IMG/VR virus record: IMGVR_UViG_3300037487_000559
Coordinates: 1-28,539 of that record
Reading direction: 5' to 3' (one strand)
Source of the DNA: a virus
DNA length: 28,539 nt
Shown here: positions 6,302-24,956 of the stretch, piece after piece
Layout: the number at the start of each line of letters is the position of its first letter
Numbering within the stretch: position 1 is the stretch's first letter
Program-made: the position numbers and the translations under genes
Notes under the pieces: model-generated
What the model saw: the letters and a program-made list of their open reading frames with translations, nothing else
What the model was told of the DNA's origin: nothing
Database searches by the model: none

Positions 6302-6475
6302 ATGTCAAATGTTCAAACCTTCGGCTGGTGCAGTGTTCGCGATCTGACCAATCAGTGCGCGGGCTGCGATTGGCTATTGATCCAGCACAAGCTGGCCTGC
6401 TGCGAGTTCGACAAACCCGGCTTCCCGCATGCACAGCAGTGCGAGAAGTTTGAAAAGGCTGACGAATCGGCATGA
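6302..6475 (+). CDS. 57-residue cysteine-rich protein
   Basis: This small gene has six cysteines (10, 19, 22, 33, 34, 47), with CAGC and CC pairs and nearby histidines at 29 and 43, suggesting a zinc-binding or disulfide-rich mini-protein. It has no signal peptide. Its stop overlaps the endolysin start by 4 nt (ATGA at 6472-6475), so the two are translationally coupled. A TTGACA at 6258-6263, 17 bp from a weak TGATAT (6281-6286), may be a promoter, but the leader would be only about 8 nt. I do not recognise the family. Coupling suggests a role tied to lysis or endolysin control, which is inference. Confidence 0.6.
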   Translation: MSNVQTFGWCSVRDLTNQCAGCDWLLIQHKLACCEFDKPGFPHAQQCEKFEKADESA

Positions 6476-7827
6476 TTACCTCACGCCAAGCCCTTGCTCG
6501 CTACGGTTCGCCGTTGCACGAGAAGAACATGATCTTGTGGGATGTTCCGTCCGTGATGGAGCGTTCGTGTATTCCCGGCCGCATCTACGTCAACGCGGAC
6601 ATGCAGCCGGCATTGGCGCAAGCCATCGTGAATCTTATTACTCGCGGATTCATTGGTGAACTGAAGACGTGGGACGGGTGTGTATCGGGCGACACTGAGT
6701 ATTTTAACGGCGTTGGTTGGTCTCCAATAGCGTCGTATCAATCTGGCAAAGTTGGTCAGGTAGATGAGGATGGAGTTCTGTCAATGGTGACGCCAGAAAG
6801 GTTTATAGCTACACCTTGTGATGCGTTTGTACGGGTACAGAGTGCGCAGGGCGTTAGTCAGGTAGTGTCATATGATCACCGGGTTATATACATCGACGGG
6901 CGCGGCAATGAGCAAATTGTTTTTGCCGGAGACATTCTGGCGGAATACAAAAAACACCCACACAAGAAAATAAAAATACCTACGACATACATTACAAATG
7001 CGTCAGGTATTGACTACTCTGACGCGTATATCCGGCTAAAAACTGCTGTTTTTGCAGACGGTTGCTTCCCCCATAAGCACCGGGAAACGAAGATAAACTA
7101 CTGTAAGGTTTTGCTTCGTAAGCAACGAAAGATAGATCGATTAGGGCGATTACTTGTAGAAGCTGATGTAGCGTTCAAAAGAAGTGTTAATTGCCGTGGA
7201 GAGACGACATTCTATTTCTACATGGACAATAAGGATAAACACTTTGACGCTACTTGGTACGCCTGTTCGTCTGAACAATTGCGAGCCGTATGTGATGAAG
7301 TTAAATACTGGGATAGTTCAGTAGACAACGGTCGGTTTTTTTCTACTGATAGTAGGGACGTAGATTTCATACAGTACGCACGCGGCGCATGCGGGGTGCG
7401 ATCTAAGGTCGTTCAGACACGCGAAGGCTCTGGCGTTCAGAAAACATGTTATGCCGCCACGCTATCTCTTAACACAACACCGGCAGTAGCCACGGACGGC
7501 GCTGGAATAACGCATATCACAGTCCCTGGCGGGATGAAGTATTGCTTTACTGTCCCAACAGGAAGGCTTCTTCTGCGTCATAACGGGCATGTTTTCATAA
7601 CCGGAAACTGTTTTAACATCCGTTCAAGCCGGGGTGGCGCTTCTGCCAGCCTGCACTCATGGGGTCTGGCGGTTGACGTGAATGCAGCATGGAACAGCTA
7701 TGGTCAGCGAGCAACGCTGTCAGAAGGCTTCGTCCAATGCTGGAAAGACGCGGGCTTTGACTGGGGTGGTGACTGGGAAACTTGTCCTGATGGAATGCAC
7801 TTCCAACTGGCTAGGTGGCCAGAATGA
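6472..7827 (+). CDS. M15 peptidase endolysin interrupted by an intein
   Basis: The 451-residue precursor contains two extein parts, residues 1-69 and 380-451, that join into a 141-residue L-alanyl-D-glutamate (VanY/M15-type) peptidase, a normal size for such endolysins. The C-extein has the zinc signature SLHSWGLAVDVN (H395 and D402) and the third ligand near the end in DGMHFQL (H443). This enzyme class cuts the peptide stem of peptidoglycan during lysis. The intein occupies residues 70-379 and would separate the N-terminal part from all zinc ligands, so the unspliced protein should be inactive. There is no signal peptide, so release would depend on a holin. The gene opens the lysis cassette and is coupled by ATGA overlaps on both sides. 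Confidence 0.88.
   Translation: MITSRQALARYGSPLHEKNMILWDVPSVMERSCIPGRIYVNADMQPALAQAIVNLITRGFIGELKTWDGCVSGDTEYFNGVGWSPIASYQSGKVGQVDEDGVLSMVTPERFIATPCDAFVRVQSAQGVSQVVSYDHRVIYIDGRGNEQIVFAGDILAEYKKHPHKKIKIPTTYITNASGIDYSDAYIRLKTAVFADGCFPHKHRETKINYCKVLLRKQRKIDRLGRLLVEADVAFKRSVNCRGETTFYFYMDNKDKHFDATWYACSSEQLRAVCDEVKYWDSSVDNGRFFSTDSRDVDFIQYARGACGVRSKVVQTREGSGVQKTCYAATLSLNTTPAVATDGAGITHITVPGGMKYCFTVPTGRLLLRHNGHVFITGNCFNIRSSRGGASASLHSWGLAVDVNAAWNSYGQRATLSEGFVQCWKDAGFDWGGDWETCPDGMHFQLARWPE
6679..7608 (+). mobile_element. Intein (310 residues) with LAGLIDADG-like endonuclease
   Basis: The intein starts at Cys codon 6679 with the block A motif CVSGDTEYF. Block B is visible as VVSYDHRVI (His at intein residue 67). 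The C-terminal blocks read KYCFTVPTG and HVFITGN, followed by the +1 cysteine of the extein at 7609. The residue before the terminal Asn is Gly rather than the usual His. Between these lies a homing endonuclease domain: IRLKTAVFADGCF (about 118-130) is a degenerate LAGLIDADG helix and DVDFIQYARGACGVRS (about 227-242) resembles the conserved second half of phage DOD-type endonucleases. Base use is more AT-rich than the flanking exteins, consistent with recent arrival. Confidence 0.88.
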
Positions 7828-8147
7828 ATTCACGGAACTATCCCGCAAAAATCGTTCGCGTTGTTGATGGCGACACCGTTGCACTTGATGTTGATACAGG
7901 TTTTCACAATCGTTTCGCCTATAACTTTCGCCTCAACGGTATAAACGCGCCGGAAGGTAAGAGTCTTGCTGGTGTGCGGTTGAGCGAGATGCTTTACCCA
8001 GGCCGCGAAGTCACAGTTACCACATGGAAGGCTGACAAATACGGTAGATGGCTTGCTGACATCACCATCCCAAACCTATGCCCATCTGTGTGTCGCCTGC
8101 TGCTGGATGAGGGACTTGCCGTTCCTTATGCTGGAGGTGCGCGATGA
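7824..8147 (+). CDS. Small SNase-fold (thermonuclease-like) nuclease
   Basis: The 107-residue protein matches staphylococcal-nuclease-like proteins: VVDGDTV (D17), RLNGINAPE (R36 and E44) and DKYGRW (R75) line up with the catalytic Asp21, Arg35, Glu43 and Arg87 of the family. The residue matching Asp40 is Asn41. The order and length suggest a minimal but probably active calcium-dependent nuclease. No signal peptide is visible. The ATG at 7824 overlaps the endolysin stop (ATGA), with AGGTGG just upstream; a GTG at 7815 in the same frame is an alternative. Its place between endolysin and holin candidate is unusual. It could degrade host or leftover DNA at lysis. Confidence 0.8.
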   Translation: MNSRNYPAKIVRVVDGDTVALDVDTGFHNRFAYNFRLNGINAPEGKSLAGVRLSEMLYPGREVTVTTWKADKYGRWLADITIPNLCPSVCRLLLDEGLAVPYAGGAR

Positions 8148-8401
8148 CCGAGATGCTTACCAATTCATTCACCCAGTTCTGGGACTTCATCGACCAGCGC
8201 GGCGTGATCAGGCGAGCCGTCCTCGGTGTCTCAATCTGGATGTTGTGTGTGCAAGCGAATTGGGCTTACGAGTACAGCCTTGCCGCTCTGGCATTGGGCA
8301 AAGCAGATGTAGGTGTAGCCGCAATCGTTACTGCGCTATCCGCCCCGGCGACCCTGCTGGTCGTTTCAGTGTTCAAAAATTACGTTGAGAGTCGTCCATG
8401 A
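8144..8401 (+). CDS. Putative holin, two membrane segments
   Basis: The 85-residue protein has two hydrophobic stretches, about 25-45 (AVLGVSIWMLCVQANWAYEY) and 55-78 (VGVAAIVTALSAPATLLVVS), separated by a short polar turn with an acidic residue, and charged ends. That is the form of a class II holin, which would let the signal-less endolysin reach the cell wall. Assignment rests on topology and on position between endolysin/nuclease and the spanins. It overlaps both neighbours by 4 nt. Confidence 0.65.
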   Translation: MTEMLTNSFTQFWDFIDQRGVIRRAVLGVSIWMLCVQANWAYEYSLAALALGKADVGVAAIVTALSAPATLLVVSVFKNYVESRP

Positions 8402-8512: not shown

Positions 8513-9007
8513 ATGGGCTTCCTTTCACTCATTCCGTTACGCACTTGGGTGGTTGGGCTATCTGGCGCTATCGCTGTTGCTGGCATTGCTTGGGCTGTTT
8601 TGGCTATTCGCAACGATGCTGTTAACGAGTGCAACATCGAGCATCAATTGGTTGCTGCAGCGCAGGCAGAGGAGGCGCATCAGCAATATCTTGCTGGCAT
8701 CGAGGCGGGCGAGCGGATCAGCAAAGAACTCTTAGATACGGAGCGCAAATATGCCGACCTCAAACGCGAATACCTTACTTATGCCAACGCTATTACTGGC
8801 AACTGTTCTAGGGCTATCGGCGTGTTGTCCAACGCCGCCATTGCAGGCACCCAAGTTCCCGCACCCACCGGCAAACCTGATGACGCCACCGCGCCCATTA
8901 GTGCCGCTGATCTTGCCGGGAACATCGCCCAAAACTACGCAATCGCCAACTCAAACGCCGCCCAACTCAACGGATTACAACGCTGGATTGAAGAGGTTTT
9001 GAAGTGA
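8513..9007 (+). CDS. Rz: i-spanin, Rz-like
   Basis: The 164-residue protein has an N-terminal membrane anchor (about 11-32) followed by a long alpha-helical periplasmic part (VAAAQAEEAHQQYLAGIEAG, then RISKELLDTERKYADLKREY), the shape of Rz-type inner-membrane spanins. These pair with an outer-membrane lipoprotein to fuse the membranes in the last step of lysis of Gram-negative hosts. The assignment is strengthened by the lipoprotein gene embedded in the +1 frame. The start follows the preceding stop by 1 nt. Confidence 0.85.
   Translation: MGFLSLIPLRTWVVGLSGAIAVAGIAWAVLAIRNDAVNECNIEHQLVAAAQAEEAHQQYLAGIEAGERISKELLDTERKYADLKREYLTYANAITGNCSRAIGVLSNAAIAGTQVPAPTGKPDDATAPISAADLAGNIAQNYAIANSNAAQLNGLQRWIEEVLK
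8751..9002 (+). CDS. Rz1: o-spanin, Rz1-like lipoprotein
   Basis: Entirely inside the Rz gene in the +1 frame, this 83-residue protein has a short hydrophobic leader and the lipobox LSAC (lipidated Cys at 25), then a proline-rich tail (PTPPLQAPKFPHPP), the hallmark of Rz1 outer-membrane spanins. The ATG at 8751 gives a leader without a basic residue; the ATG at 8781 would shorten it further. Full embedding is one of the known spanin arrangements. Confidence 0.85.
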   Translation: MPTSNANTLLMPTLLLATVLGLSACCPTPPLQAPKFPHPPANLMTPPRPLVPLILPGTSPKTTQSPTQTPPNSTDYNAGLKRF

Positions 9008-10513: not shown

Positions 10514-10914
10514 GTACAACGACAGTCACCAATGCAGCAGTCACGCTGGTAGCAGCAGGAACCAGTAACGCTGCCGCCGGCACCACACGCAGCACTCCGT
10601 ACAGCTTGGTTGGAAAGCTCGGCGGCATCGTCACGATGAAGATTATCAACGGAGGCACTGGCCCAACTTTGCAGTGCGAAGGTCGCGTGTTGATTGCACA
10701 CAACGCAACCACGCCGTCTGCTGGCAGTGCTGGTGCTGACTGGAAAACCTTGTGGGTGTTTGGTGGTGGCACGACTTTGAATGCCATTACTGAGCAATCT
10801 TGGGAATTCGGCCCCGGCGTGATGCAACTGGAAATCGAGTTCACAGGTAACACGGTTCAACCAGTAACGGTCGAAGCCTACCTGTCAGAAGTCACCAACA
10901 GCGTGACTGCCTAA
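10510..10914 (+). CDS. Hypothetical beta-rich protein, probably structural
   Basis: The 134-residue protein is rich in Thr, Gly and Val with alternating hydrophobic strands (LGGIVTMKIINGGTGPTL, VMQLEIEFTGNTVQPVTVEA). It is coupled to both neighbours (4-nt overlap upstream, 1-nt downstream). No motif identifies it. The setting before a fibre-like gene suggests a small tail or collar component. Confidence 0.5.
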   Translation: MSTTTVTNAAVTLVAAGTSNAAAGTTRSTPYSLVGKLGGIVTMKIINGGTGPTLQCEGRVLIAHNATTPSAGSAGADWKTLWVFGGGTTLNAITEQSWEFGPGVMQLEIEFTGNTVQPVTVEAYLSEVTNSVTA

Positions 10915-13403
10915 TGTCGTCTTTACTGCTCCCTCGGAGGTTTTATAGCCAGTCGCAGGGGGCTGTGACGTTAGCAAGCGAGTACAAAAATGCAGAAATA
11001 TGTATCGTTGGTAATCTTAGGAATCTAGGAATTTCCGGCGGAGAATTAGCTAAAGGGACGGTGCGTGGAACCATTGCTAAATCAATTAATATAATCGGAG
11101 ACTCTTACGGGCCTACATCAAGTGACGGTGGTTATATAAGCTTTAATAACACAGCATCTATGAAGGAAAGAGTACATAGTGGGGTTATTGTAGGTGTAGT
11201 ACCTGTATTAATTAACAACTGTACTTTGCTATGCACTGGATACTCAGTTATTAATGGAGGTTTTAGGGTTGGTTTTACATCATCTGGGGCTGTTTATCTT
11301 GTTAACAATAATATTATTGTCATAGCCCAAACCCCAGATGCTAGGGTGATATCAGGCGTCCCATTCAGAGTCGCATACTCGTATAATGGTTTTACTGGCG
11401 CGGCCATTATTGTAGTGAATGGTAAAGTAACTACGGCTAATAGGGCTCTTGATATAAGCACCTCGTCAACAATTACCGCTATTGGTAGCTATTATTCTCA
11501 TACAAATGTTGATCCTGGAAAGAAAGATTTTAACCTAGTCGCTCACTGGACAGTTAGTAAATCAGTAACCGAGTTGGTATCCCTCTCAGCCAACCCCTGG
11601 CAAATCTTCAAGCAACAACCCTCGCGCATCCCCTTCAGCACACTGGCGTCAACGGCTAACCTAAATATTTCCGGCGCTGTCTCTCAGACCCTGGCGAATA
11701 CAACAGGTTCAGCGGCAGCAAATCTGAAGGTCGTAGGCTCAGTCTCTCAGACACTGGCAAACGCCACACTTGCGTCTGCAGCCAGCCTGAAGGTCGTTGG
11801 CTCTGTCTCGCAAACACTGGCCGATGCCACACTTGCATCCGCAGCCAACCTGAAGATTGCAGGCTCTGTCTCAGCAACGCTGGCCGATACCACAGGCACA
11901 GCCACAGCCAACCTGAACATCGTTGGCTCTGTCTCGCAAACACTGGCCGATGCCACACTGGCGTCTTCCGGTATTCAAATCTCCGTTGGTAGCGGTCAGG
12001 TTGTTCAACAACTGGCCGATGCCACACTTGCGTCCGCAGCCAACCTGAAGATCGTCGGCTCGGTCTCTCAGACACTGGCCGATGCCACAGGTACAGCCGC
12101 AGCCAATCTGAAGGTCGTAGGCTCAGTCTCTCAGACACTGGCAAACGCCACGCTATCGGCAGCAGCCAATCTGAAGATCGCGGCGAGTGTCTCAGCAACA
12201 CTGGCCGATGCCACAGGTACATCCTCAGCCAATCTGAAGGTTGCTGGCTCTGTCACTCAGACACTGGCCGATGCCACACTATCGGCAGCAGCCAACCTGA
12301 AGATCGCGGCGACAGTCTCGCAGACGCTGGCCGATGCCACACTGGTGGCAACGGGTGCGCACCAGACGCAGGGTAGCGGTCAGGTCGTTCAACAACTGGC
12401 CGATGCCACACTTGCGTCTGCAGCCAATCTGAAGATCGCTGCGACAGTCTCGCAAACGCTGACCAATGTCACGCTATCTGCAGCAGCCAATCTGAAGATC
12501 GCTGCGACAGTCTCGGCAGCGCTGGCTGATGCCACAGGCACGTCAACAGCCAACTTGAAGGTAGCGGGTTCGGTCACTCAAACCCTGGCCGATGCCACGC
12601 TATCGGCAACAGCCAACCTGAAGATCGTTGGTTCGGTCACAAAAACCCTATCCGACACAACGCTATCGGCTTCAGGTGCCCTTCAGGGAATGGCTGCCGG
12701 TCAAGTTGTTCGGCAACTGGCTGATACCACCCTTGAATCAACAGCCAACCTGAAGATCGTTGGTTCTGTCTCGCAAACTCTGGCCAATGCGACAGCCGCA
12801 GCCGCAGCCGAGATAAAACTCACAGGCTCGCTAAATCAAACGCTCAACGACGCAGCGCTGGTCGCACACGGAAACCTAATAGTTTCAGGCGCGTCAACGG
12901 CCAACCTTGAAAACGCCACGCTCGCAAGTGCGGGTGCATTGCGAATCGGTGCGTCGGTCTCTGTTGTGCTGGCCGGCGTGCAGGCTTCAGGTGCAGCGCA
13001 GATAAAACTGAGCGGCTCTTTAACGCAAGCGTTGCAGAACGTAACACTGGCTGCAGTTGGGGACGCTTCGGCCGGCACGATCATATCGGCGTCACAGGTT
13101 CAGATGATTGCTGACATTTGGCGCAGATTCGGCCTCGATGCAACTCGGCCGCTGACTGAGACTGAAACAGAGGTCTCCTTCGGCGGAATCATGTTGTCGA
13201 AGTCAGGCACAACGGCGGTGACGACACAGCGTAGTGGTGCCGATATATCTGGCAATGCGACTCTGATGTTGACAGAATTGTGGCAGCGCTTCGGCCTTGA
13301 CAGTGCCAATCCGATGAGTGTGTCGGATCATGAAATTGTCTTCGGTGGAGTCATCCAGACGGTGGCACAAGTTGGAGATGCTTTTGTGGTGACTAGACAA
13401 TGA
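10914..13403 (+). CDS. Fibre-like virion protein with LamG-like head and long repeats
   Basis: The 829-residue protein has three parts. Residues 1-240 resemble a LamG/concanavalin-like domain ending in SLSANPWQIF, a signature common at the end of such domains in phage tail proteins. Residues 250-717 are 22 copies of a 21-residue repeat. Residues about 725-829 carry two related copies of a motif: IWRRFGLDATRPLT...FGGIML and LWQRFGLDSANPMS...FGGVIQ. The first part is visibly more AT-rich than the repeats. The protein is probably a virion adhesin or tail-associated fibre. It starts with a 1-nt overlap with the previous stop. Which end faces the virion is unknown; the repeats could act as a variable-length shaft. 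Confidence 0.7.
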   Translation: MSSLLLPRRFYSQSQGAVTLASEYKNAEICIVGNLRNLGISGGELAKGTVRGTIAKSINIIGDSYGPTSSDGGYISFNNTASMKERVHSGVIVGVVPVLINNCTLLCTGYSVINGGFRVGFTSSGAVYLVNNNIIVIAQTPDARVISGVPFRVAYSYNGFTGAAIIVVNGKVTTANRALDISTSSTITAIGSYYSHTNVDPGKKDFNLVAHWTVSKSVTELVSLSANPWQIFKQQPSRIPFSTLASTANLNISGAVSQTLANTTGSAAANLKVVGSVSQTLANATLASAASLKVVGSVSQTLADATLASAANLKIAGSVSATLADTTGTATANLNIVGSVSQTLADATLASSGIQISVGSGQVVQQLADATLASAANLKIVGSVSQTLADATGTAAANLKVVGSVSQTLANATLSAAANLKIAASVSATLADATGTSSANLKVAGSVTQTLADATLSAAANLKIAATVSQTLADATLVATGAHQTQGSGQVVQQLADATLASAANLKIAATVSQTLTNVTLSAAANLKIAATVSAALADATGTSTANLKVAGSVTQTLADATLSATANLKIVGSVTKTLSDTTLSASGALQGMAAGQVVRQLADTTLESTANLKIVGSVSQTLANATAAAAAEIKLTGSLNQTLNDAALVAHGNLIVSGASTANLENATLASAGALRIGASVSVVLAGVQASGAAQIKLSGSLTQALQNVTLAAVGDASAGTIISASQVQMIADIWRRFGLDATRPLTETETEVSFGGIMLSKSGTTAVTTQRSGADISGNATLMLTELWQRFGLDSANPMSVSDHEIVFGGVIQTVAQVGDAFVVTRQ
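11661..13064 (+). repeat. 22 in-frame 63-bp repeats encoding 21-residue units
   Basis: Consensus unit: LKIVGSVSQTLADATLASAAN. Sixteen units are 21 residues. Three units (5, 11, 16) are 20 residues, and each is followed by a 24-residue variant containing GQVVQQLAD or GQVVRQLAD (units 6, 12, 17). This gives a higher-order period of about 5-6 units. Early units are highly similar in DNA; the last five diverge. Confidence 0.9.
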
Positions 13404-17279: not shown

Positions 17280-19163
17280 ATGGTTGACCAGTCTGAATTT
17301 TTAAAAAGAATGAATGTCGTGTTTGCAGGACAATACGATTTTTCTAAATCAGTATATGTGAAGGCGTTGGAAAAACTTGAGGTTGTTTGTCCAACACACG
17401 GTTCTTTTTTTGCGAAACCGAACTCACTGTACAGAGGGTCAGGCTGTCCGAAATGCGCCGTCGATAAGGTTGGGAGGAAGTCCAGGTTGAGACTTGAAGA
17501 TGTTAAAAAAGACCTTCTACGCATACACGGAGATAAGATCACATTTCCAAAAATAGAAACGGAATTTGTAGACTCGCATAGCAAACTTACGGTGAACTGT
17601 AATGTGCATGGAGAGAGTGGTAAGGTTTCTGTGCAAGAACTTAAAAAAACGTCCGGTTGTCCTAAGTGTGGATACCTTGCGCGTTCTAATAACATCCGCA
17701 TCACGTCGGAAGGTTTTAAAAAAAGAGTCTCAGAAAAGCACGGGGTTAGTTTAATTCCACACATGCACACATATACATCTTTGAGCGCGGACGTGCGTGT
17801 TTCTTGTTTAAAACACGGCGCGTTTACAACCAAAGCGTCTTCTTTATATAGAGGTTATGGTTGTAAAAAATGCGCCAATGAAGCTAACGGTAAAAAGCGA
17901 TCTTTTTCTGAAGACGAAATAAGGCGTGCATTAGTCGGTAAGCCTGTTTCTCTAATAAGGCTATATAAAACAAAACGCGGGACACAAGCGTTGATGTTGT
18001 GCCAGGAGCACGGCGAATATAAAACACAAGCTGCTTCTATTATGGCAGGTAGGGGTTGTTTGAAATGTTCTGCCAAAATTAGAGGGTTGAAAACTGTTGT
18101 TTGTTTTGACGAGTTTATAAGCAGGGCAAAGGTTATACACGGCGACAAATACACATACTGTCGAGATCGCTATACAAGTATCAGCGAAGGTGTTGTTGTA
18201 ACATGTAAAGACCACGGGGAATTTACACAAAGAGGTTCCGATCACATCCATAAAGGCTCAGGTTGCCCAGCATGCGGCGTACTGAAAGACTCAAAACCTC
18301 AGATTGAAATTTCTAAGTTTATTGAACGATTTGGTTATGAGACTGTTAGAAACTATAAATTCTCTGACAGTAAGCATGAAATTGATGTTTTTATTCCTGA
18401 GTTAAAAATAGCCATAGAATACAACGGTATTTACTTTCATACGCAGCAGTTCCGCAAGTCTAGCGGCTATCATATTGAAAAAACAAAATTGGCTGCAAAA
18501 CACGGCATAAGACTCGTTCATCTGTTTAGTGACGAGTGGGAAAACAATCAACTCGCGTGCGAAAGCTACTTGATGAATCTTATCGGTGTGCGTTCACAGT
18601 TTTCTAAATACGCGAGGAAGTGTGAGATCGGTGATGTTACTCAGGATATAGCAAATGATTTTTACACTGCAAATCACATACAAGGTGCGTGCTGGCACGG
18701 TATTAATGTAGGTTTATTTGATAAAAACGTACTTATAGCACTCATGACATTTTCTAAGAAAGCAAGCGGTAGAAAGGTGCTAGGTTCTGGTGATTGGGAA
18801 TTGGTTAGGTTTGCATCATCAGAAAATGTGGTCGGAGGTGCTAGTAGATTGTTCAAAGCACTACTAAACAAAACGAGGGCAGATCGTGTAATTTCATTCT
18901 CAGACAATCGTTTGTTTTCTGGAGGTGTATATGAGCGCATGAGATTTACAAAAGACATTGTCTACCCGCCGAATTACGCATACGTTGATCGTAATGGATC
19001 GCAAAGACTTCACAAATCACGTTTTCAGCACAAGCATTTGAAAACCCTTCTCGGTGACGCCTACGACCCGACGAAAACGGAGAAAGAAAACTGCGAGTCT
19101 GCTGGGTACTACCGCATCTACGACTGCGGCCTGACGCGGTGGGTGTGGTCTAAGGGCGGCTAA
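17280..19163 (+). CDS. Zinc-ribbon, Vsr-like (EDxHD) homing endonuclease
   Basis: The 627-residue protein has five zinc-ribbon modules of about 60-65 residues, each with a CxxHG (or CxVHG) and a CxxC, within about 5-335; they resemble DUF723-type modules. A nuclease domain follows at 337-425: HEIDVFIP (D369), YFH (H387), YH (H398), FSDEW (D418). This is the layout of EDxHD/Vsr-like homing endonucleases such as I-Bth0305I. A further domain (about 440-625) contains NHIQGACWHG, FASSENVVGGASRLFK and SFSDNRLF, also common in such phage endonucleases. The gene is AT-rich compared with neighbours. AAGGAG lies 6 nt before the ATG, and TATACT at 17240-17245 is a candidate -10. It splits the capsid gene from the connector genes. 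Confidence 0.85.
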   Translation: MVDQSEFLKRMNVVFAGQYDFSKSVYVKALEKLEVVCPTHGSFFAKPNSLYRGSGCPKCAVDKVGRKSRLRLEDVKKDLLRIHGDKITFPKIETEFVDSHSKLTVNCNVHGESGKVSVQELKKTSGCPKCGYLARSNNIRITSEGFKKRVSEKHGVSLIPHMHTYTSLSADVRVSCLKHGAFTTKASSLYRGYGCKKCANEANGKKRSFSEDEIRRALVGKPVSLIRLYKTKRGTQALMLCQEHGEYKTQAASIMAGRGCLKCSAKIRGLKTVVCFDEFISRAKVIHGDKYTYCRDRYTSISEGVVVTCKDHGEFTQRGSDHIHKGSGCPACGVLKDSKPQIEISKFIERFGYETVRNYKFSDSKHEIDVFIPELKIAIEYNGIYFHTQQFRKSSGYHIEKTKLAAKHGIRLVHLFSDEWENNQLACESYLMNLIGVRSQFSKYARKCEIGDVTQDIANDFYTANHIQGACWHGINVGLFDKNVLIALMTFSKKASGRKVLGSGDWELVRFASSENVVGGASRLFKALLNKTRADRVISFSDNRLFSGGVYERMRFTKDIVYPPNYAYVDRNGSQRLHKSRFQHKHLKTLLGDAYDPTKTEKENCESAGYYRIYDCGLTRWVWSKGG

Positions 19164-23004: not shown

Positions 23005-24897
23005 TCAAACGGCACCTTCGGGTGCCGTTTTGTTTTCCCACACCCATTTGGTTAGGCCACAGTCATACACACGGTAATAACCGTTGGCTTCACAGTTCTC
23101 TCGTTCTGTTTTTGTCGCATCGTAGTTATCGCCAAACATCACCTTCAAGTCTTTGTGTTGAAACTTGGACTTGTGCAGGCGACATCGGGCTGCTTTATCA
23201 ACATAGCTGTAATTTGGCCCGTATACTTTGGACTTGGTAAACCCGAGATGTATATACGTTGACCCCGTAAACAATCGGTTATCTGAGAAAGACACAACCC
23301 GTTTTGCCCCAGTAACAACAATAAGTTTTTTGAAAAGTCTGCTCGCTCCACCCACCACATTCTCACAAGAAGCAAAGCGTGCTAGTTCAAAATCAGCGCC
23401 GATCAGCGCCGATCTTGCACTACCTCGTTTTGAAAATGTCATACATGCAATCAATACGTTATTGGAAAACAGACCGTAGTTTGTACCTGATCGATACGCA
23501 CCTTGAATATGATGAGTATCGTAAAATTCGTCGGCAGCAGATTGAGCAACTTCGTCAATTTCACACTTGCGAGCAAAGACTCGAAATGGTCGTTTGACAC
23601 CGATCAGGTTCATAAGAAAGCTATCGACAGCACACCATCTCGATTCAATCTCATCAGAAAAGAATTGAATTAGTCGTATGCCGTTTTTTTCAGCAAGCTG
23701 CGCTTTGTCGAGATGAACACTGCTGTTTTTGCGGTATCTTTGTGAGTGATAAAATAAACCGTTATATTCAATACCGATGTTGTAATCAGGTAAAAACACA
23801 TCAATCTCATGTCTGGTGTTCCCAAGCTTATAGTTACGCTCAGTTCTTACACAAAATCTTTCTAAGAACTCGCTGATTTTGATCTGTGGTTTTGAGTCTT
23901 TAAGTGTGCCGCATGTTGGACAACCATCACCCCTACTCACATGACCAATCGCCAACTGCGAAAAGACGCCATGAGTCTGACAAACTATAGATACCTTACC
24001 TTTCATTTGAGTATATGACAAACTATCGTATGAATACACCATACCGTGTGTCTGACGAGCCCGTTTTTCAAATTCATCAAATCTGATAACCTGATTTAAA
24101 GTTCGACGTTTTAATGAACACTTCGGACATTCTGTATTTATACTTAACGTAAATTTGTTGGTTGTAAATTCGCCATGTTCAGAACAATTCAGAGCAACTC
24201 GTCGATCACTCGTACTTACATATGTTAAGTTTGATGGGACTCTTTCGAGTATCTGGTCCTCGGTTAGTTTTCTATAATTGTTCTTTTCATTATTCGCACA
24301 CTTAGGACAACCACTACCTTGTAGATGAGTTATCGCCGTCTGTAAAAACGAACCGTGGACCTTACATACAATTTCGATATGTTCAGTAGAACTACTATAA
24401 GTTGCGCGTGAGTAATCATAACGATCACCGTGGGTGGACGTTGCACGAGCGACAAATTCAGACGTGTCCATCTTGTGCGCACCTGCACGCGCATCAATAC
24501 CGCATTTTGCACAAGCGTATTTTGATGCGTTGATGAGGCTATTGGTTTTGACCGAGCCATCTCCGTGCTTTTCACAACGCACAGTAATCATGGAGTTTGC
24601 GTTTTTATATTCGCGCTCGATGTGTGGATATGTTATGTGGTCAAAAGCGGGTAGACGGAGGCGAATGTCATCCAGCGAAAGCACGCGCTCCTTGGACAAC
24701 TTCTCATTGGTGCAAAACCTGCATCCACCATTTAAATAAAGGGACGCGGGTGCGATCTCAAAGAATCCATGTGTCAGACACCGCACCCGGACCTTTGACG
24801 TGGCTCCCCGGTAGACCGACTCGCTCAGGTCATAGCGAGAGCCGTGTACGGCATTAACCTTGGCGACAAATTCGGATTGTGTCAGCTTTTTACTCAT
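23005..24897 (-). CDS. Second zinc-ribbon, Vsr-like homing endonuclease (paralogue)
   Basis: The 630-residue protein has the same architecture as the 17280 gene: five zinc-ribbon modules (CxxHG and CxxC pairs between residues 8 and 330), then an EDxHD-type nuclease domain (HEIDVFLP with D366, H384, H395, FSDE with D415) and a shared C-terminal domain (HHIQGAYRSG, FASCENVVGGASRLFK, SFSDNRLF). The spacing from first to last catalytic Asp is 49 residues in both proteins. The C-terminal half is more conserved than the recognition modules. The start at 24897 (MSKKL) is chosen over an upstream ATG at 24954 because the intervening residues do not match the paralogue and a promoter lies between. The last residues run through the terminator at 23007-23035. 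Confidence 0.85.
   Translation of the reverse strand: MSKKLTQSEFVAKVNAVHGSRYDLSESVYRGATSKVRVRCLTHGFFEIAPASLYLNGGCRFCTNEKLSKERVLSLDDIRLRLPAFDHITYPHIEREYKNANSMITVRCEKHGDGSVKTNSLINASKYACAKCGIDARAGAHKMDTSEFVARATSTHGDRYDYSRATYSSSTEHIEIVCKVHGSFLQTAITHLQGSGCPKCANNEKNNYRKLTEDQILERVPSNLTYVSTSDRRVALNCSEHGEFTTNKFTLSINTECPKCSLKRRTLNQVIRFDEFEKRARQTHGMVYSYDSLSYTQMKGKVSIVCQTHGVFSQLAIGHVSRGDGCPTCGTLKDSKPQIKISEFLERFCVRTERNYKLGNTRHEIDVFLPDYNIGIEYNGLFYHSQRYRKNSSVHLDKAQLAEKNGIRLIQFFSDEIESRWCAVDSFLMNLIGVKRPFRVFARKCEIDEVAQSAADEFYDTHHIQGAYRSGTNYGLFSNNVLIACMTFSKRGSARSALIGADFELARFASCENVVGGASRLFKKLIVVTGAKRVVSFSDNRLFTGSTYIHLGFTKSKVYGPNYSYVDKAARCRLHKSKFQHKDLKVMFGDNYDATKTERENCEANGYYRVYDCGLTKWVWENKTAPEGAV
23007..23035. 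terminator. Bidirectional terminator between tail tube and minus-strand gene
   Basis: AAACGGCACC (23007-23016), a TTCG loop and GGTGCCGTTT (23021-23030) form a 10-bp stem followed by T-rich sequence. On the minus strand, the last codons of the convergent homing gene run through this hairpin. Confidence 0.9.
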
Positions 24898-24928
24898 CGT
24901 CAATATCCATGTGAATGTGTTTGACACA

Positions 24929-24956
24929 AGTGTACCACAACAAAAATGTTGCACAA
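24929..24956 (-). promoter_or_regulatory. Minus-strand promoter for the second homing endonuclease
   Basis: On the minus strand, TTGTGC (24951-24956) and TACACT (24929-24934) are 16 bp apart. The transcript would begin near 24922, about 24 nt before the start codon. The ribosome site is weak. Confidence 0.4.

Follow-up and report, generated by a model that had tools for sequence, protein, structure and literature searches.

Phage inteins have been described mainly in DNA-handling proteins, and the list of intein hosts in PMC5050341 includes no lysis protein. Likewise, none of the 224 mycobacteriophage endolysins surveyed in PMC3314691 was interrupted by introns or inteins, and no endolysin intein was reported in the literature that we searched. 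Introns are known from the endolysin genes of the staphylococcal phages K, G1, ISP and A5W (PMC5526547). With regard to the splicing chemistry, Kelley and colleagues demonstrated that the intein in the recombination directionality factor (RDF) of mycobacteriophage Bethlehem, which natively has Gly as its penultimate residue, spliced completely, whereas the Gly-to-His mutant needed over 5 h for about 50% splicing (PMC5050341). We here describe a predicted cell-wall hydrolase as an intein host. In the viral record IMGVR_UViG_3300037487_000559, analysed over its positions 1 to 28,539 (the window, 28,539 nucleotides), the gene of a probable M15-type endolysin is interrupted by an intein within a lysis cassette, as follows.

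6472-7827, plus strand: ORF of the probable M15 endolysin precursor, 451 aa
6472..6678, plus strand: N-extein, residues 1-69, C-terminal GELKTWDG, aligned with uninterrupted relatives
6679-7608, plus strand: intein, 310 aa, precursor C70-N379, aligned end to end with phage inteins
7021..7059, plus strand: first LAGLIDADG-type helix (predicted), precursor 184-196, ending A-D196-G, with the D in 60 of 61 relatives
7270..7314, plus strand: second LAGLIDADG-type helix with acidic residue, precursor 267-281, ending VKYWD281 (helix predicted at 267-277)
7609..7824, plus strand: C-extein, residues 380-451, starting from the +1 Cys, where relatives continue CFNIR, with PF13539 at 388-446
7815..8147, plus strand: SNase-like nuclease ORF overlapping the endolysin 3' end (PF00565, E 2.3e-4; phrog_452, E 5.4e-18)
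8144..8401, plus strand: holin-like small hydrophobic protein, found beside the endolysin position also in the sister contigs L147, L155 and L259
8513..9007, plus strand: Rz-like inner-membrane spanin (phrog_1403, E 3.4e-5)
8751..9002, plus strand: Rz1-like outer-membrane spanin, nested in Rz in another frame, with the lipobox LSAC (phrog_3198, E 2.7e-5)

The boundaries of the insert are fixed by two independent lines of evidence, namely uninterrupted relatives of the enzyme that span the site and alignments with other inteins whose ends coincide with the residues given above. The insert begins CVSGDTEYFNGVGW and ends GHVFITGN, followed by Cys380. A PHROG intein-bearing family matched precursor residues 67-380 (E 6.5e-35), and in tblastn the 310-residue segment aligned over 1-310 with inteins in phage PhoH, RtcB, RecD-like, primase/helicase and other genes. 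For the 141-residue protein composed of residues 1-69 and 380-451, one search yielded uninterrupted relatives in 43 viral contigs, and a search with the profile of the uninterrupted family gave matches in viral contigs (the best 80 of 579 being considered) and 30 in bacterial genome contigs. Of 151 M15 relatives checked, 138 were found to span the insertion site in one piece, the remaining 13 being distant M15 proteins whose match begins later. Partial M15 matches that break off near residue 70 also proved on inspection to be ordinary distant M15 proteins. An alignment of 16 rows places the site between the invariant G69 and C70 of the uninterrupted protein, four residues upstream of the invariant R74, and Y39 of the N-extein is invariant as well; the motif TWDG/CFNIR (the slash marks the insertion point) is strongly conserved. 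At the DNA level, AAGACGTGGGACGGG precedes the intein and TGTTTTAACATCCGT follows it, and the intein-free site of a related contig (L148) reads straight through as AAGACGTGGGACGGA and TGTTTTAACATTCGT. The insertion is thus in frame and matches the empty site of the relatives to the codon, with no host sequence lost, so that it cannot credibly be put down to chance or to an artefact of assembly. The 310 intein codons are free of stop codons and frameshifts. The GC content of the intein is 46.5%, compared with 55.6% and 56.0% for the exteins, which is consistent with acquisition. A preliminary description, made from the sequence alone, had called an intein here, and its call was borne out by the relatives, the intein alignments and the structure model described below, down to the coordinates, the lengths (insert 310, product 141) and the numbering of the zinc ligands. 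Uninterrupted homologues, which it had suggested seeking in related phage genomes, are indeed present in the 138 relatives, and the sister contig L147 has an intein-free endolysin.

The host gene probably encodes an M15-type endolysin, acting as a peptidoglycan L-Ala-D-Glu or related endopeptidase. Peptidase_M15_4 (PF13539) was detected by Pfam at precursor residues 388-446 (E 1.3e-14), and the whole domain lies within the C-extein. The predicted spliced enzyme has the HxxxxxxD...H zinc pattern together with the catalytic Asp, and the ligands H85, D92 and H133 (spliced numbering) as well as D130 are all located in the C-extein; the intein therefore interrupts the enzyme upstream of every zinc ligand, as the preliminary description had stated. 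Furthermore, the profile of the uninterrupted family aligned over the HxxxxxxD and WGGDW...DxxHF motifs with 2vo9 and 8q2g, two solved L-Ala-D-Glu peptidases that are M15 relatives. No signal peptide is evident by eye at the N-terminus.

The genomic context agrees with this assignment. Holin-like, Rz and Rz1 genes follow the endolysin gene, and those of L147 are 86-87% identical to the genes of the window, while the L147 endolysin shows 74% and 63% identity to the two halves of the interrupted one. The holin-like protein had no match in the family searches, and its sequence and position suggest that it is a holin. L155 shows the order TerL, portal, endolysin and holin-like gene, without the intein, an HNH gene or the SNase-like gene. 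In L259, whose TerL and portal proteins are 97% and 86% identical to those of the window, the endolysin slot (L259:5462-6010) is occupied by a GH108 lysozyme (PF05838, E 7.6e-30), which is an apparent endolysin exchange within one lysis cassette. Such a conserved slot with exchangeable enzymes supports the endolysin role of the interrupted gene. The SNase-like ORF, between the endolysin and holin-like genes, is a neighbour outside the intein and had no match in L155 and L259.

The intein itself was modelled by AlphaFold2 with a 42-row alignment, and the mean pLDDT was mostly >90 across precursor residues 70-380; the extein parts were poor because the alignment covered the intein only, and a prediction without an alignment gave a pLDDT of 32. 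The best Foldseek matches in the PDB were homing-endonuclease inteins, namely TliVMA (E 2.8e-12), PhoVMA, PI-SceI and PI-PfuI, followed by the LAGLIDADG enzyme I-DmoI. The model and these matches thus reveal a HINT splicing fold together with a LAGLIDADG fold that retains both acidic residues. In comparison with 61 non-redundant viral-contig relatives, the conserved residues (intein numbering) include C1, T6, W14, H67 of block B, K151, K187, Y288-C289 of block F, G309 and N310, as well as D127 and D212, each of which is conserved in 60 of the 61, and W211, conserved in all of them. As in LAGLIDADG enzymes, the two aspartates are positioned at or just past the ends of predicted helices, here 184-196 and 267-277. 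The second motif reads WDS in the window, as opposed to WDG in most relatives. Pfam LAGLIDADG_3 (PF14528) had no match in the window protein and matched 4 of 46 relatives. The LAGLIDADG domain claimed in the preliminary description is accordingly upheld by the I-DmoI match, by these four relatives and by the conservation of D127 and D212.

Splicing calls for Cys, Ser or Thr at positions 1 and +1, a His in block B and a C-terminal Asn, and the corresponding C1, +1 Cys, H67 and N310 are all present. Class 3 inteins have a non-nucleophilic residue 1 and a Trp(B:12)-Cys(F:4)-Thr(G:5) triplet. The present intein has Cys at residue 1 and Val69 at what we take to be block B position 12, and of the triplet it has just the Cys and the Thr. 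We therefore assigned it to class 1, on the basis of the first Cys and the Val in place of the class 3 Trp. As the intein retains all of the splicing residues together with both LAGLIDADG aspartates, the best reading of the sequence is a splicing-competent and probably homing class 1 intein. Two relatives in terminase-like genes (L104 and L110) have Pro in place of the first Cys, so that some members of this mostly class 1 clade may begin in the manner of class 3.

The intein ends in Gly-Asn and lacks the typical, though not obligatory, penultimate His. The preliminary description had noted this Gly correctly and had proposed from it that splicing might be slow or conditional. That proposal is not supported. 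The Gly-Asn ending is the norm of the clade, occurring in all of the 80 viral-contig relatives considered (the best 80 of 250), whatever the host gene, and in all 17 other inteins of the alignment. The Turj99 RDF intein, which belongs to the Bethlehem RDF group, scored 42.5 bits against the profile of this clade and shares the block F Cys and a TGN end. Because penultimate-Gly inteins splice, as in the Bethlehem case, His is not defining (PMC5050341), and since that intein spliced completely and was slowed by the Gly-to-His change, the Gly provides no evidence for a delay; its use as a sign of slow splicing is rejected.

The related inteins reside in very different proteins. Directly after the intein, 65 of the best 80 of 250 relatives resume with the xGK of a P-loop, and most of the remaining 15 exteins look like P-loop variants when counted by eye. 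Pfam assigned the exteins of 46 representatives to SNF2 and DEAD helicases, RecD, terminase, SpoVR, RecA, DnaB and others, and the M15 profile detected no M15 protein among the 80 exteins. Neither the intein profile (best 80 of 250) nor the endolysin profile (viral best 80 of 579, and genome contigs) revealed a second intein-bearing endolysin, and a DNA pattern for TGN/CFNIR gave 0 matches outside the window's own record. The distribution, with no second endolysin-intein allele found in these searches, therefore does not demonstrate homing at TWDG/CFNIR. Some matches seemed to extend into the C-extein, namely those in Proteus phage RS8pmA, MT835481 and Enterocloster phages, but none was M15-like, and that of MT835481 reads as RtcB. 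The earlier remark that an endolysin host is uncommon agrees well with these counts (0 of the best 80 of 250 related inteins) and with the mycobacteriophage survey (0 of 224; PMC3314691). In an intein tree in which a donor was sought, the window copy formed a long branch with no close or supported sister. TWDG/CFN resembles the P-loop sites in having Gly before and Cys, Ser or Thr after the insertion point, and the intein may have jumped from a P-loop site to the endolysin site. A small group of related inteins (L109, L112, L113, L140 and L141) has no P-loop at the junction (e.g. SHA/CQGHSHFF) and thus likewise deviates from the usual site. An insert of >100 residues, unrelated to inteins as far as it was read, lies inside the peptidase domain of a Streptomyces griseoruber M15 protein (L252:3698-4753).

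The reading that we strongly favour is that the M15 endolysin gene was invaded by a self-excising, homing class 1 intein, a selfish passenger that leaves lysis timing largely unaffected. The gene, the boundaries, the empty site, the domain folds and the intact residues form its basis, and splicing, homing and the small effect on lysis timing would follow the scheme given below. The WDS variant of the second LAGLIDADG motif weighs against it, as does the failure of our searches to turn up a second endolysin-intein allele. Among the other readings, that of an ordinary accessory domain or an assembly chimera has next to no probability. M15 domains can hold inserts, as the Streptomyces protein does elsewhere in its domain, but the present segment lies codon-exactly at an empty site, has intein ends on both sides and an intein fold, and recurs in none of the relatives of the enzyme that were considered; the intein homology and the empty site refute this reading. 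It is very unlikely that the insert is a splicing-defective relic, or an intein that cleaves and releases a C-terminal fragment with all of the zinc ligands. C-terminal cleavage alone might free a partial enzyme, because PF13539 lies wholly in the C-extein. However, every splicing residue conserved in the clade and the +1 Cys are intact, the reading frame is open throughout, and the invariant Y39 and G69 indicate that the N-terminal part is probably needed.

A lysis timer, in which slow or conditional splicing keeps the endolysin inactive until late infection, was put forward in the preliminary description, but it finds no support here and is improbable in our judgement. With the insertion a few residues before R74 and upstream of all zinc ligands, an inactive precursor is plausible, and conditional splicing has been described for other inteins (PMC5790916, PMC6195587). 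Against a timer, the Gly-Asn end accompanies the clade in any host gene, a phage intein with a penultimate Gly went to completion and was slowed by His (PMC5050341), and 138 relatives manage without an intein. Moreover, a holin-like gene and spanins adjoin the endolysin, and lysis timing in such cassettes is normally set by the holin. Nor need the precursor be inactive, as the termini of inteins are close together in known HINT folds, so that the exteins might still fold around the intein. Improbable, too, is the related view that the intein has been retained to act as a post-translational clock or sensor, its slow or conditional splicing adding a layer of control to holin timing; for example, a redox response of Cys70 or Cys380 could set the readiness of the enzyme, with an inactive precursor in the cytoplasm.

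In the favoured model of a selfish passenger, a mobile class 1 intein would have invaded the endolysin gene at TWDG/CFNIR. After translation, Cys70 would form the first thioester, Cys380, the conserved Cys of the endolysin itself, would accept the N-extein, and cyclization of Asn379 would free the intein, with a peptide bond restoring the 141-residue enzyme. The LAGLIDADG domain of the free intein or the precursor would cut intein-free alleles, into which the intein would then be copied. As no signal peptide is evident and the endolysin would remain in the cytoplasm until the holin acts, splicing would have time to finish before the holin-triggered release.

The window contains further elements.

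1-108: 37-bp tandem repeat, about three copies, at the contig start
4061-4696: HNH homing-endonuclease-like ORF between TerL and portal (phrog_374, E 6e-71)
10914-13403: 829-aa protein with 63-bp tandem repeats (VSQTLADATL..ANLKIVG), without a family match
17280-19163, plus strand, and 23005-24954, minus strand: large ORFs (627 and 649 aa) with DUF723-type units (phrog_559, phrog_3339)

In the gap occupied by the HNH ORF, L259 has a 50% identical ORF and L155 has none. The DUF723-type ORFs match homing endonuclease families and lie, one per strand, among head and tail genes. Only the C-terminal part of the 829-aa repeat protein was matched in L259. Rfam and tRNA scans of the window found nothing.

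These results suggest that this intein clade is not confined to its usual P-loop sites and that a conserved Gly/Cys site in a lysis gene can also receive it. The host, predicted to be muralytic, is only 141 residues long and easily assayed, and its precursor and spliced product are directly comparable, so that the effect of the intein on lysis timing becomes testable. For annotation, the case is a warning, as an automatic pipeline could label the ORF as a hypothetical protein of 451 aa or as an enzyme with two domains. Neither the element nor its chemistry is out of the ordinary for a known phage clade; its endolysin address is new as far as our searches reach.

Finally, the locus can be compared with the known systems. 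The zinc pattern and the WGGDW...DxxHF motif are common to the M15 endolysins 2vo9 and 8q2g and the window enzyme, but such relatives are uninterrupted, whereas the latter carries an intein. The introns of the staphylococcal phages K, G1, ISP and A5W are also mobile intervening sequences in endolysin genes (PMC5526547), but they leave at the RNA level, while the present element is a protein intein in a lysis cassette of the Gram-negative type. The intein of Bethlehem gp51, like that of the window, is of class 1 with a penultimate Gly (PMC5050341); it is, however, distant, its host is an RDF, and splicing was shown there, whereas the window intein is known from its sequence. The most similar elements are the phrog_32482-type LAGLIDADG inteins, such as those in the PhoH of Acinetobacter phage AM24, in a RecD-like protein of an Enterocloster phage and in Tenacibaculum phage PTm1. 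These and the window intein are 306-331 aa long and share equal conserved residues and the Gly-Asn end at 25-39% full-length identity, but the exteins of the former are helicases, terminases, PhoH, RecA-like proteins, RtcB and the like, whereas the host in the window is a cell-wall peptidase, entered at WDG/CFNIR.
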